A stretch of DNA of 64,000 nt from a bacterium. Lineage in GTDB: Bacteria; UBP6; UBA1177. The notes beneath the pieces were generated by a model. It worked only from the letters and a program-made list of their open reading frames with translations, was not told the origin of the DNA and did no database searches. Made by a program: the position numbers and the translations under genes. The stretch is taken from assembly GCA_017405875.1 (NCBI GenBank), contig JAFQZM010000022.1, positions 62,001-126,000 on the forward strand. The letters run 5' to 3'. Shown here one piece after another: positions 18,348 through 52,301 of this stretch. Position 1 is the first letter of the stretch; every line of letters starts with the position of its first letter.

Positions 18348-18623
18348 ATGAATAAGTCGAATTTAATTGCTGTTTTTTCTGACAAAGCAAACCTTTCAAA
18401 GAGAAATGCGGAACAGTTCGTAAACATTATGATTGATTCAATGATTAAAGCTCTCAAAAACGGCGAGCGCGTTGAAATCAGAGGTTTCGGCAGTTTCGTA
18501 GTCCGCACTTACGGTGCTTATGAAGGCAGAAATCCCAAGACCGGCGAAACGATAAACGTCGATCAGAAGAAACTTCCTTTCTTCAAGGCTGGAAAAGATC
18601 TTCTTTCCCGCATCAATGACTGA
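18348..18623 (+). CDS. HU/IHF-family DNA-bending protein
   Basis: The 91-residue protein is a full-length member of the bacterial histone-like family. The DNA-binding signature is GFGSFVVRTYGAYEGRNPKTG (residues about 45-65), with the beta-arm Asn-Pro that intercalates into DNA. The EIRGFGSF phrase favours the IHF-beta side over HU, but assignment is not certain. It acts as a dimer in nucleoid structure and DNA bending. The start has GGAGG five bases upstream. A strong hairpin terminator follows, so the gene is a single unit. Confidence 0.9.
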   Translation: MNKSNLIAVFSDKANLSKRNAEQFVNIMIDSMIKALKNGERVEIRGFGSFVVRTYGAYEGRNPKTGETINVDQKKLPFFKAGKDLLSRIND

Positions 18624-18677: not shown

Positions 18678-21188
18678 ATGTCGTTTAAAGCAGAACTTTA
18701 TTTTACGGCGGCAGCCATCCGGCTTGCGAGATATTTTATTTCGCAGAATGACGGAAACGAAATCGTTATGGTCGGCAAGGTGGATGCAGACGGAAAAATC
18801 TGTGATCTCCGTCGTGCCGCAATGGGTGATTCCGGCTCTGTTCCTGCGGTTATCGCGACTGCCGCGCCGGGTGAAGTCCTTATCCACAACCATCCTAGCG
18901 GAAACATAAATCCGAGCGGGGCAGATATTGAAGTCGCGGCCCGCGCAGCCGAAAAAAGCGTCGGTTCATACATTGTTGATAACGATGTGATAAATGTTTT
19001 TCCGGTAGTCGAAAGGATTGAACCCGAAAACACCGAAATAGAGCCTGTCGATCTTGAAGAAGTTGCGGAGATCTTCAGCATAAACGGCAGACTTGCGCAG
19101 TCAGACAGTACGTTTGAGTTCAGACATCCTCAGACTGAAATGGCTCTCAGTGTCGCCGAGGCGATAAACTCTTCGTCTGTTCTGGTTTCAGAAGCGGGAA
19201 CGGGAACCGGAAAAAGTTTTGCATACCTTGTTCCTGCGCTGCAATACGTCTCGAAAAACAAAGGGAAGAGAGTTGTCATAAGCACTTCGACTATCGCTCT
19301 GCAGGAGCAGCTTTTCAACAAGGATATTCCGGCACTTCTCAAAAAACTTGATATTGACGATGTCGGAACGGTCGTTCTGAAAGGAAGAAGCAACTATCTC
19401 TGCAAAAGGAGATACGCTGATTTCAGAATGGGAAGTATCCAGACGAAAATCGACGATGCGGCTTCGCAAAAAAGTGTCGAAACTGTTGAAGAGATCGACC
19501 GCTGGCTCAACTATACCGATGACGGATCGCGTTCGAACATGAATTCTGCTGTCTCTCTCGATATCTGGAACGAGATCTGCGCCGACGAACTTGCCTGCGA
19601 AAAGAGCAAATGCCGATTTTTCAGTTCATGCTTCTTTTTCAAGGCGAGAAGACGGGCAAATTTTGCCTCTCTCATCCTTGTGAACCACCATCTTTTGATG
19701 GCTGATGTCTCGATGAAATCAGCGGAAGACGAAGGTGAGGGGATTTTACCGAAGTTCGATATTTTAGTTATTGACGAGGCGCACAATATTTTTAAAAGTG
19801 CGGTCAGTTTTTTAGGCGAATCGGTTTCGTCAAATTCAGTCAGAAAACTGCTCGGAAAACTTTACAACACTTCATCAGGACAGGGGCTTCTGACAAAAAT
19901 TCTCAGCAACAACGCAAATTCAACGCTGCTGAAACCGCTTGAAAAGGCGGTAAACATTCTTTCCGGCGGATTTCAGGCGAAACTTGCACACTCGTTTATT
20001 CCTGAACTGATCTCGATTTTAGGTAAAAACAGCGACGAAAACCTTTTTGAACTTGACGACCCTGAAAAACGGAAGGAAATGACCGATGTTTTGGGAAAAA
20101 TCGTGACAGTCGTGACTGATGTTACCGATCTGATCGCGCCGGTCGTAAAACTTTTGAAGGAAAAGGATGAGGCGCAAACCGAGCTTCGAACAGTCATGGA
20201 TGACATGAACCGCTCGCTTCTCACTGATCTTGAAGGAGTCGTTGCAAAACTTGCCTCCTACGCAGGATTTTACAGTGAATTCTGCATAGGAACAAACACC
20301 GAAAATCAGGTTTTCTGGGGTGAAAAGAGCGGCGAAACACTAACACTTACGATAAGTCCGCTTGATGTGCAGCGGATCTTGGCTGACAATCTTTACAAAG
20401 ATACCAAAAGCATAATTTTCACTTCGGCGACTCTTACGACAAGCCGCGACGAGCACGGTTTCGACTTTTTCTACCGTGAAAGCGGTTTATCTATGACCGA
20501 AAGGGAAAAAAAGGCGATAAGTTTAGAGAGCTGTTTCGATTACGCTTCCCAGATAAAGGCTTTCATAGGCGGTGATATGCCCGATCCTGCCAGGGACCGC
20601 GAACTTTTCGATTCGGCGAGCATCGAAGCTGCACACGACATCGTCAAGGCTTCAGGCGGCGGCGCACTTGTTCTTTTTACTTCGATAAGCCACCGCGAAA
20701 ACGCTCTCAAATACTTTTCAGACCTTGATTTTGAGGTTTTTTCTCAGGGGAAAATGTCGGTTCAGGCGATAATGAAAAAGTTCCGCGAGGACGTGAACGC
20801 AACTCTTCTTGCGACCGAAACTTTCTGGGAAGGAATAGACATGAAAGGGGAGACGCTGCGAAACCTCGTGATAATCAAACTTCCGTTCCGCTATCCGAGT
20901 CACCCTTTCATCAAGCGTTATGTCGCACGTCTTGAGCAGGAAACGGGAAAGGGCGGTTTTCAGGTTTACACGCTGCCGAACGCGGTGCTTAAATTCAAAC
21001 AGGGCTTCGGCAGACTGATAAGAACGAAAAGCGACATCGGAACTGTCACAGTGCTCGATAAACGCATCGCCGAAAAGAATTACGGCCGCGATTTTATCAG
21101 GTCTGCGCCTGCAGGAGTCAGGTTCAACGTCCTTCCGGTTGCCGAAATCACCCGCAGAATCGAAGAATTTTTTTGCAGAAACGATTGA
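18678..21188 (+). CDS. RadC-like JAMM domain fused to a DinG-family helicase
   Basis: The 836-residue protein has two parts. Residues 1-115 form a RadC-like JAMM/MPN domain with a complete metal motif: Glu28, His70, His72, Ser80 and Asp83 in HNHPSG followed by PSGAD. Residues 140-836 form a superfamily-2 helicase of the DinG/XPD class, with Walker A GTGTGKS (174-180), DEAH (366-369), cysteines after LCKRR and in CADELACEKSKC that fit the iron-sulfur cluster, and motif VI QGFGRLIR. DinG helicases unwind 5'-3', including R-loops and D-loops. In other DinG proteins the N-terminal partner is an exonuclease domain; here it is a putative metalloprotease. It could cut a protein bound to DNA while the helicase clears the strand (inference). 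The start lacks a clear ribosome-binding site. Confidence 0.88.
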   Translation: MSFKAELYFTAAAIRLARYFISQNDGNEIVMVGKVDADGKICDLRRAAMGDSGSVPAVIATAAPGEVLIHNHPSGNINPSGADIEVAARAAEKSVGSYIVDNDVINVFPVVERIEPENTEIEPVDLEEVAEIFSINGRLAQSDSTFEFRHPQTEMALSVAEAINSSSVLVSEAGTGTGKSFAYLVPALQYVSKNKGKRVVISTSTIALQEQLFNKDIPALLKKLDIDDVGTVVLKGRSNYLCKRRYADFRMGSIQTKIDDAASQKSVETVEEIDRWLNYTDDGSRSNMNSAVSLDIWNEICADELACEKSKCRFFSSCFFFKARRRANFASLILVNHHLLMADVSMKSAEDEGEGILPKFDILVIDEAHNIFKSAVSFLGESVSSNSVRKLLGKLYNTSSGQGLLTKILSNNANSTLLKPLEKAVNILSGGFQAKLAHSFIPELISILGKNSDENLFELDDPEKRKEMTDVLGKIVTVVTDVTDLIAPVVKLLKEKDEAQTELRTVMDDMNRSLLTDLEGVVAKLASYAGFYSEFCIGTNTENQVFWGEKSGETLTLTISPLDVQRILADNLYKDTKSIIFTSATLTTSRDEHGFDFFYRESGLSMTEREKKAISLESCFDYASQIKAFIGGDMPDPARDRELFDSASIEAAHDIVKASGGGALVLFTSISHRENALKYFSDLDFEVFSQGKMSVQAIMKKFREDVNATLLATETFWEGIDMKGETLRNLVIIKLPFRYPSHPFIKRYVARLEQETGKGGFQVYTLPNAVLKFKQGFGRLIRTKSDIGTVTVLDKRIAEKNYGRDFIRSAPAGVRFNVLPVAEITRRIEEFFCRND

Positions 21189-21243: not shown

Positions 21244-22968
21244 ATGAGAGTAAGTCAGCTTTTTTTCCAGACATTGAAAGAAGTTCCCAAAGAGGCGCAG
21301 ATCGAAAGCCACAGGCTCCTTTACCGCGCCGGAATGATACAGAAACTCGCGAGCGGCGTTTACAACTACCTTCCGCTTGCACTCAGAAGCATCAGAAAAC
21401 TTGAAGACATAATCCGCGAAGAGCTCAACAAACGCGGCTGTCAGGAAGTCCTCATGCCGTCGGTACAGCCGGCTGAACTCTGGCAGGAAAGCGGCAGATG
21501 GGGCTACTACGGACCTGAACTTCTCCGTCTTAAAGACAGAAAAGGCGGAGATTTCTGCCTTGGTCCGACGCACGAAGAAGTCATCACCGACATGGTCCGC
21601 AGAAATTTAAGAAGCTACAAGCAGCTTCCTTACAACCTTTACCAGTTCCAGAGCAAGTTCCGTGACGAAGTCCGTCCCCGTTTCGGCCTGATGAGAGGCA
21701 GAGAGTTCATAATGAAAGACGGTTATTCGTTCGATGTCAGCGAAGAGAAGGCGAAGGAATCCTACAAAAAAATGTATGAGGCTTATAACGCGATTTTCAC
21801 GAGAAGCGGCCTTAAATTCAAGCCGGTCGATGCTGCAACGGGCGCAATCGGCGGCGATATGAGCCACGAATTCCAGGTCCTTGCCGATGCAGGCGAAGAC
21901 ACGATTCTTTCGTGCAGCAAGTGCAGTTACGCGGCAAACCTTGAGAAGGCAACATCGGTTTACAGCGAAAACAAGCCCGATTCTTCAAATGTTCCGCCTG
22001 TAAAAGATGTCGAAACTCCGAATCAGAGATCGGTCGAAGAAGTTGCCGCCTTCCTGGGTAAAACCACGAAAGAAATAATGAAATCAATGATTTATATGGT
22101 CGATGAAGAGCCTGTTCTCATCCTTGTCAGAGGCGACAAAGAGATCAACGAAGCAAAAGTTCAGGCTTTCTGCAAAGGAAACGCGGTCGAACTTGCAAGC
22201 GACGCCGTCATCGAAGATGTTTCGGGCGCGCCTCACGGCTTCATCGGGCCTGTAGGTCTTAAAAAACAGATCAGAATTCTGGCTGACTATTCGATCACGA
22301 CGATGTCTTCGCTGACTGCCGGTGCCAACAAAGAGGGTTACCACATCGAAAACGTCGTTATGCGCAGGGATTTCACTCCGGATGCAGTCGGCGATTTCGT
22401 CGTCACGACGGCTGGCGAGAGATGTCCTCACTGTGACGGCGTGCTTGAAGAGTGCAGAGGTATCGAAGTCGGGCAGGTTTTCTATCTCGGAACGAAATAC
22501 AGCTCGAAGATGAAATGCGAATTTATCGATGAAAACGGCGAATCTGTTCCTGCAGTCATGGGTTGCTACGGAATCGGCGTCGGCAGAACGGTTCAGGCTG
22601 CGATCGAGCAGAACCACGACGAATTCGGCATAATCTGGCCGATGGCGCTTGCTCCTTATGAAGCGATCGTTCTTCCGCTCCAGATGAACAAAGAAGAAGT
22701 AAAGAACGCTGCATTCGATTTTTATGAAAAGCTCAATGCTGCAGGAGTTGAAACTGTCATTGACGACCGCGACGAAAGGGCCGGATTCAAATTCAACGAC
22801 GCTGACCTTGTCGGATATCCGGTTCAGATAATTTTCGGCGCAAAATCGCTCGAAAGAGGCGTTGTAGAAGTAAAAATCCGCAAAACCAACGAAAAACAGG
22901 AAATGAAAATCGAAGACGCCGTTGATTTTGTCGTCAATTTCAAGAGGGAAGAACTCAGGATAAAATGA
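21244..22968 (+). CDS. proS: Prolyl-tRNA synthetase, bacterial type
   Basis: The 574-residue class II synthetase charges tRNA-Pro. Motif 1 lies in the N-terminal part (YNYLPLALRSIRKLEDII), motif 2 is FRDEVRPRFGLMRGREF (about residues 139-155), and motif 3 is GIGVGRTVQAAIEQ. The inserted YbaK-type editing domain, which removes mischarged alanine, covers about 225-390. The C-terminal anticodon domain starts near 470. The length is normal for the long bacterial form. The start has AGGAG six bases upstream. It overlaps the next gene by 4 nt (ATGA). Confidence 0.95.
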   Translation: MRVSQLFFQTLKEVPKEAQIESHRLLYRAGMIQKLASGVYNYLPLALRSIRKLEDIIREELNKRGCQEVLMPSVQPAELWQESGRWGYYGPELLRLKDRKGGDFCLGPTHEEVITDMVRRNLRSYKQLPYNLYQFQSKFRDEVRPRFGLMRGREFIMKDGYSFDVSEEKAKESYKKMYEAYNAIFTRSGLKFKPVDAATGAIGGDMSHEFQVLADAGEDTILSCSKCSYAANLEKATSVYSENKPDSSNVPPVKDVETPNQRSVEEVAAFLGKTTKEIMKSMIYMVDEEPVLILVRGDKEINEAKVQAFCKGNAVELASDAVIEDVSGAPHGFIGPVGLKKQIRILADYSITTMSSLTAGANKEGYHIENVVMRRDFTPDAVGDFVVTTAGERCPHCDGVLEECRGIEVGQVFYLGTKYSSKMKCEFIDENGESVPAVMGCYGIGVGRTVQAAIEQNHDEFGIIWPMALAPYEAIVLPLQMNKEEVKNAAFDFYEKLNAAGVETVIDDRDERAGFKFNDADLVGYPVQIIFGAKSLERGVVEVKIRKTNEKQEMKIEDAVDFVVNFKREELRIK

Positions 22969-50966: not shown

Positions 50967-52301
50967 ATGGATTTCATCTCTCCCTACATCGACAGCGAAA
51001 AAAAGCTCCACATCAGGTTTGAAAAGCTCTTTTCTCTGCTTTCATCGTGCGGTTTTTCGGGAAAAATAAATGTCTTCAACGGCGGCGAAACTTTTTTCAT
51101 ACTTCTTTCAAAAGGCTCTGCTTGGACAGATAAACCAATGAATTTGTTGGGAAATTTGTCTAAAAACGCTCTTTTTAAAGTCGATAGCGCGATAAATGAC
51201 GAGATGAAGATGGGGATGAAGGAATATGACGGAAACGAATTCCTTTTTTCGGTGATCCTGAATATGTCCAGAGAGCGGGTCCTCGAAGTGCTCAAGCCTT
51301 ATGCGACGGAGTTCCTTTCGATAAAACCCGAAGCGGCGAAACTTATTTTTCTTCACGACGACCTTCAGCCTTTTGTCGGACAGAAAAGGATCGAGATTTT
51401 TTCAAATCTCAAAAAGAGTTACCGTGTTATCTATTTTCTTTTGATTTCGCAGTCTGCCGTCATTGTTCAGGCTACTGATGAAGAAAGGGTAAAAATAACT
51501 GAAAAACTCAATAAATCCGATATCTTTTCAGAAAAAGCGGCAACGGAAGAAGTTGTTGAAAAAGTTGCTGCGGAGAAGAAGCAGGAAACGCTTTCGGAAG
51601 AAGAGGAAATCAAAATGTTCCTCAACGCCAACGAACATTACAACGACGTTTTCCAGCTTTTCGGACTCAAAAACAAATTCGATGAAAAGATCGCGCGCCG
51701 TGAATACATCAGGATAATGCAGAAGATACACCCTGATAAACTTGTCGGGATTTCACCTAATACAGCGCTCAGGGCTAAAGAGTTTCTGCAGCTTGCAGGC
51801 GAATGCTACGAGCTTATCCGCGATCCTGAAGTGGCAAGTGATATCGAACATCTGATGATGAAATACGGTCCGATAAGGTCGAAAACCGAATATCTGAAAA
51901 TGAAGGAATACGATTCGGCGATGATGAAGGCAACCGCTCTGGCTAAAATCGGTTCGTATGAAGCGGCGGCAAAAGTGTTTGATTTTATTTATCAGGAGAC
52001 TAAAAATCCTGCGGCTCTGGAACAGAAAAATCTTGCTCTCTGGAAGCTCGCTCCGAAGTGGAACAAGTTCGAAAAAGCCGACAGATACAAAGATATCAGA
52101 GATGATTTCGTGAAAGTTTCAATGATAAGGGAACTCTCTTTCGAATCAATGTATATTCTGGCTGAAATTTACGAATATTTTGAAGATATCCCCGATGCCG
52201 TAAAAGTTCTCGACGCTATTCTTAAATCACGACCGGACGATTTCAAGGCTGCCGGAATGAAAAAAAGGATGATTTATTACAATCGGTTGAACAAGAATTA
52301 A
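50967..52301 (+). CDS. J-domain protein with N-terminal beta domain and TPR tail
   Basis: The 444-residue protein has an N-terminal domain of about 170 residues (GKINVFNGGETFFILLSKGSAW) that resembles DUF4388/PATAN-type signalling domains but is too diverged to assign. A charged linker (about 180-215), a J-domain (about 225-290, HPD at 255-257 in MQKIHPDK), and a helical TPR-like tail (about 300-440) follow. Proteins with this order are common in Myxococcota. It starts 2 nt after the carboxyltransferase stop and shares that operon. It could recruit an Hsp70, such as the one at 29112. The stop overlaps that of the convergent lipoprotein gene in TTAA. Confidence 0.72.
   Translation: MDFISPYIDSEKKLHIRFEKLFSLLSSCGFSGKINVFNGGETFFILLSKGSAWTDKPMNLLGNLSKNALFKVDSAINDEMKMGMKEYDGNEFLFSVILNMSRERVLEVLKPYATEFLSIKPEAAKLIFLHDDLQPFVGQKRIEIFSNLKKSYRVIYFLLISQSAVIVQATDEERVKITEKLNKSDIFSEKAATEEVVEKVAAEKKQETLSEEEEIKMFLNANEHYNDVFQLFGLKNKFDEKIARREYIRIMQKIHPDKLVGISPNTALRAKEFLQLAGECYELIRDPEVASDIEHLMMKYGPIRSKTEYLKMKEYDSAMMKATALAKIGSYEAAAKVFDFIYQETKNPAALEQKNLALWKLAPKWNKFEKADRYKDIRDDFVKVSMIRELSFESMYILAEIYEYFEDIPDAVKVLDAILKSRPDDFKAAGMKKRMIYYNRLNKN

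Follow-up and report, generated by a model that had tools for sequence, protein, structure and literature searches.

A RadC-type JAMM domain on an Fe-S DinG helicase: an intact motif and repeated loss in a known protein type

We analyzed a 64,000-nucleotide stretch of bacterial DNA (the window) that contains a gene for a RadC-like DinG protein. The gene lies on the forward strand at positions 18678..21188 and encodes 836 amino acids followed by a stop codon; the ORF starts with ATG, has no internal stops, and its extent is supported by full-length orthologs. Upstream, across a 54-bp gap, an ORF on the same strand (18348..18623) encodes an HU-type DNA-binding protein of 91 amino acids. The downstream neighbor, also on the forward strand (21244..22968), is an ORF of 574 codons which was named by eye as the housekeeping enzyme prolyl-tRNA synthetase.

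The N-terminal part of the protein (residues 1–119; 18678..19034, + strand) is a RadC-type JAMM/MPN domain, assigned on the basis of Pfam RadC (PF04002), AlphaFold2, and Foldseek. A fast-evolving linker (residues 120–145; 19035..19112, + strand), whose dN mostly exceeds that of both domains when relatives are compared, joins it to a DinG/YoaA-type SF2 helicase (residues 146–836; 19113..21185, + strand) identified by an NCBIfam model and Foldseek. PF04002 was found at residues 58–92 with 27.8 bits when the whole protein was searched (cut-off 22.1) and with 31 bits on the isolated JAMM domain, and all 60 fusion domains of our alignment A3 matched it. In the helicase part, Pfam Helicase_C_2 matched residues 653–811 with 135 bits, and DEAD and DEAD_2 were matched with 42.5 and 27.7 bits, respectively. 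The top NCBIfam helicase match was the YoaA model (NF053712; residues 131–815), at 509.7 bits against a curated cut-off of 680. The single ORF, the Pfam matches, and the orthologs bear out the original prediction, made from this DNA alone, that one gene joins a JAMM domain to a DinG-type helicase.

The motif of JAMM/MPN+ enzymes, E-xn-H-x-H-x7-S-x2-D, is present within the MPN fold. Its glutamate, E28 (18759..18761, + strand), is the predicted general acid-base by analogy with E22 of AfJAMM (PMC300881) and was found in all 72 fusions compared; the predicted metal-binding motif H70-x-H72-x7-S80-x2-D83 occupies 18885..18926 (+ strand). Although E28, H70, H72, S80, and D83 were invariant across these 72 near-full-length fusions, the set is partly biased, since our search pattern contained HNHP and our ORF filter HxHx7SxxD, so that the two histidines were partly selected by the former and S80 and D83 by the latter. 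An asparagine lies between the two histidines (H70-N-H72), as also occurs in distant relatives (PMC300881). All five residues previously proposed to form an intact JAMM motif are present where they had been placed.

The helicase part, all on the + strand, contains a Walker A motif, GTGTGKS (residues 174–180; 19197..19217), around which E172, A173, G174, T175, G176, G178, and K179 are invariant in alignment A2; four Fe-S cluster cysteines, C242, C307, C312, and C318 (19401..19631), conserved in 99%, 93%, 100%, and 100% of the 72 fusions, respectively; a DEAH box (residues 366–369; 19773..19784) with D366, E367, and H369 invariant in A2; and motif VI, QGFGRLIR (residues 775–782; 21000..21023), with Q775, G776, G778, R779, L780, and R782 invariant in the same alignment. 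Residues 146–836 are a complete Fe-S DinG/YoaA-type helicase, as had been suggested earlier.

Using an input alignment of 60 fusions, AlphaFold2 predicted the whole chain with a pLDDT of 91 and a pTM of 0.88, and residues 1–122 with a pLDDT of 95. In Foldseek searches against PDB, the top match of the whole chain was E. coli DinG (6fwr, with ssDNA; E = 7.7e-36). For the JAMM domain, RadC (2qlc) was first (E = 7.8e-5), followed by Rpn11, AfJAMM (1oi0), and CSN5, with moderate TM-scores (~0.5) and 16–21% identity in these matches. A profile built from the 60 fusion domains also reached the RadC structure 2qlc (E = 2.7e-8). An MPN fold of the N-terminal part, set in advance as a test of the fusion, was thus predicted confidently, with RadC as the closest PDB match. 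In comparison with RadC, approximately eight residues of the first MPN helix are missing, which explains why the Pfam match is limited to the second half of the domain. AlphaFold2 also predicted a C-terminal helix at residues 821–833, a candidate counterpart of alpha7, the extra helix in motor domain 2 of RadC-like DinG.

A sequencing or assembly frameshift could in principle have joined two neighboring genes, but we found nothing in its favor. Orthologs rule out such a chimera: full-length open copies occur in related genomes at 80–97% identity, orthologs at 93–97% among them, and of the 18 further family genomes that we searched, 17 have the same single ORF, as do dozens of unrelated records. 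In addition, dN/dS among near relatives of the window protein was 0.01–0.17 for the JAMM part and 0.03–0.14 for the helicase, the former falling within the helicase range for most comparisons. An artifact, which had been raised as a possible refutation, therefore has a practically negligible chance of being correct. The fusion is real and, judging from these substitution patterns, kept by selection; purifying selection in both halves is consistent with the earlier view that both are probably active.

The architecture itself had been presented as if it were new; however, it has already been published and is common. The Aravind group noted RadC domains joined to DinG/RAD3 helicases in 2017 (PMC5512222), and "RadC-like DinG" is one of ten DinG subgroups in a 2025 review, with its type protein from Desulfuromonas soudanensis (Cheng 2025, PMC11981726, section 3.8). 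The review predicted the same active site for RadC-like DinG and stated that there had been no research on the subgroup to date. The window protein, encoded on the chromosome and inherited ancestrally, belongs to this subgroup: its RadC-like domain is N-terminal and has E, H, H, and D, it carries the motifs of an Fe-S DinG-type helicase and a predicted C-terminal helix that may correspond to alpha7, and its genome has no HolC. On the other hand, it is only about 33–34% identical to the Desulfuromonadales members that we fetched, belongs to a deep spirochete branch, and has HU upstream in its own lineage. The fusions of the 2017 paper share the RadC-clade JAB domain and DinG/RAD3-like helicase, but that paper deals mainly with polyvalent proteins of mobile elements, whereas the window gene is chromosomal and lies among housekeeping genes.

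Other DinG subgroups carry an N-terminal exonuclease or endonuclease (PMC11981726). In these ExoDinG and EndoDinG proteins, an additional enzyme domain is attached to this helicase at the corresponding N-terminal position, but in the window protein this domain is MPN/JAMM rather than a DnaQ exonuclease or an endonuclease. No N-terminal exonuclease family was found in the window protein, and TIGR01407 matches it only from profile position 240. YoaA provides the best NCBIfam helicase match, but the window protein scores below its cut-off, carries the JAMM domain, and comes from a genome without HolC. Standalone RadC (PF04002, TIGR00608) has the same JAMM motif and fold and supplies the nearest solved structure, 2qlc; the window domain differs in being only ~20% identical to 2qlc, with the shortened first helix, and residues 1–131 score far below the cut-offs of the standalone models (22.9 bits vs. 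133.85 for TIGR00608; 26.8 vs. 180 for NF000642). Overall, the protein belongs to a known, widespread, named, and functionally uncharacterized type, and its occurrence here is of low surprise.

To place the gene in context, we compared its neighborhood across loci. HU is directly upstream in six loci including the window, and 29 of 81 loci have it close by. Two arrangements occur: HU immediately precedes the gene in the lineage of the window, and lies approximately three genes downstream in Treponema (e.g., L303). We rejected HU as a functional partner of the JAMM domain; since HU also lies beside genes which have lost the domain, it is uninformative in this respect. Neighbors vary between phyla, no operon partner common to phyla was seen among the loci compared, and no ubiquitin-like or E1-like partner was seen among the shared neighbors. 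Thus, the protein probably works alone.

In its own genome, the fusion is the only DinG/XPD-type helicase, as the single Helicase_C_2 protein is the one at this locus. HolC (PF04364) is absent from this genome and was found in the E. coli and Caulobacter controls. A separate standalone RadC is also present. According to our tally, about 7 of about 80 genomes with the fusion lack standalone RadC, compared with 3 of about 30 genomes without the fusion; because it is about equally common in both groups and the two forms co-occur, neither replaces the other. We also rejected an origin from a mobile element, as there was no plasmid match and the hits on viral contigs were short RadC-like or very large proteins of other architecture. 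One exception (L121; viral contig IMGVR_UViG_3300037189_012269, 2-9017) is a 3005-residue ORF with JAMM-like and helicase-like motifs, which may encode a polyvalent protein of a phage or element. Separately, in the genome of Treponema porcinum that contains L055, a RadC domain (G025:C14:188399-188749) lies in a 2745-residue open frame. A relationship to the type IV CRISPR DinG (Csf4) was dismissed because the PADLOC match arose from helicase homology only, and no csf genes were recognized by eye among the neighbors of the helicase. Elsewhere in the window (51007-51085, − strand), an Rfam match to SNORD36 just above the threshold (E = 0.53) is almost certainly due to chance in a bacterium.

Nearly every genome of the window's family has a full-length copy of the fusion, and such copies also occur in the order. 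A scan of genome contigs also detected fusions in Spirochaetota, Fusobacteriota, Halanaerobiales, Desulfuromonadales, Sumerlaeota, and Planctomycetota. Among the 80 loci kept, the frame is continuous from the JAMM motif to at least the Walker motif in nearly all, and one (L039) is cut by a contig end.

Considering that the set of 72 fusions was partly biased for the motif, we examined an independent sample by searching the order that includes the Treponema porcinum genome with the helicase part alone, which yielded an even sample of 110 helicase genes. A full JAMM domain was recognized by profile in 79 of these, and HxHx7SxxD is kept in every one of the 79. Another copy (L252) has an intact domain with an insertion, and 28 copies lack the domain, their N-terminal stretch giving no match to any JAMM profile. 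In the only clear pseudo-JAMM of the sample (L312 / L219, G110:C3), the domain has decayed and lost its HxH motif while still being fused to an intact helicase. In L241 (G115:C57), the JAMM domain (881-1226) and the helicase (1182 onward) are in two overlapping frames, owing either to a genuine split or to an error in the assembly. In another member of this helicase group (L280, G238:C4), ~500 residues precede the helicase and JAMM is matched only weakly, so that its domain arrangement may be a different one.

On a quick tree of the helicase part (98 rows, with long outgroup branches), domain presence requires 12 changes, at least seven of which are forced by well-supported branches, and domain-less copies of the Treponema order are nested inside domain-bearing clades. 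In one sister pair, L302 lacks the domain and L303 has it, and both show the same gene order on either side (CarB-like, amidase, GerMN, c5, Rel/Spo, helicase, PlsC, S20, HU, Lnt; labels read from sequence). The helicase frame of L302 opens ~113 codons closer to the Walker motif than that of L303. This is domain loss in place. Given the 28 clean absences, one decayed copy, and one in-place loss, together with the intact motif in 79 of 79 full domains, the JAMM domain is an accessory part which is dispensable to the helicase and kept catalytically intact where it is retained. We did not find such a survey of retention and loss in PMC5512222 or PMC11981726, relative to which it is new.

These observations bear on whether the domain is an enzyme at all. 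Some MPN domains act as scaffolds, and it is conceivable that the main role of this one is to bind a partner or a DNA structure and to regulate the helicase, with catalysis being secondary or absent. The repeated loss of the domain while the helicase stays would fit such a role. However, a pure scaffold is not expected to keep all catalytic residues, and the intact metal motif of the full domains, with L219 as the only decayed copy, makes this explanation unlikely. Most likely, the JAMM domain functions as a zinc-dependent hydrolase, as suggested by its conserved residues for predicted metal binding and catalysis.

What such a hydrolase might act on can be approached from the place it occupies. 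We favor nucleic acid as the substrate, mainly on two indirect grounds: the position of the domain, which in DinG relatives is taken by nucleases, and a published argument on its groove, according to which RadC-clade JAB domains lack the groove for the ubiquitin tail and are more likely to be nucleases or nucleic-acid-processing enzymes (PMC3482391, 2012; PMC5512222). This nuclease view rests partly on the RadC domains in DinG-type helicases, located where nucleases otherwise sit (PMC5512222, PMC3482391). In the best explanation, the Fe-S helicase would load on ssDNA and open forks, D-loops, or R-loops by ATP-driven 5'-3' unwinding, by analogy with DinG and YoaA; the JAMM domain would then hydrolyze the exposed strand or a lesion at its end, standing in for the N-terminal nuclease of ExoDinG/EndoDinG. 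We consider the chances of this explanation as a whole to be roughly even. Several points weigh against it. None of the RadC-like DinG proteins has a reported biochemical activity (PMC11981726), and we found no report of a JAMM domain shown to cut nucleic acid. According to Attaiech 2008, as cited in PMC11981726, mutation of radC does not make E. coli sensitive to DNA damage. Moreover, the repeated domain loss shows that the helicase can do without the JAMM domain, and in its JAMM residues the domain agrees exactly with proven isopeptidases (e.g., Csn5).

The last point leads to the function originally proposed, in which a JAMM metalloprotease trims a DNA-crosslinked or tightly bound protein or peptide while the helicase clears the strand. 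The MPN+ motif, which is complete and the same as in isopeptidases, its five invariant residues, and the presence of Rpn11 and CSN5 among the fold neighbors are consistent with a peptidase, and the DALI neighbors listed in PMC11981726 are metalloproteases, not nucleases. On the other hand, RadC-clade JAB domains are argued to lack a ubiquitin-tail groove (PMC5512222, PMC3482391), the window domain is even shorter than RadC at its first helix, and no ubiquitin-like or E1-like neighbors were seen, so that a peptidase is possible but doubtful. With a JAMM peptidase that removes DNA-bound or crosslinked protein ahead of the helicase, the protein would combine helicase and protease in one chain for the repair of DNA-protein crosslinks in bacteria, kept by some lineages and cleanly lost by others; we regard this as quite improbable. 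In our literature searches, we came across no experimental work on RadC-like DinG or on JAMM proteins in bacterial crosslink repair. A helicase with a JAMM hydrolase acting on exposed nucleic acid is still our preferred reading.

RadC-type domains are very common in bacteria, and we found no proven activity for them in the literature. The repeated loss of the domain in place makes its function testable: sister lineages with and without the domain, in the same gene order, offer a clean system for the function of RadC-type domains.
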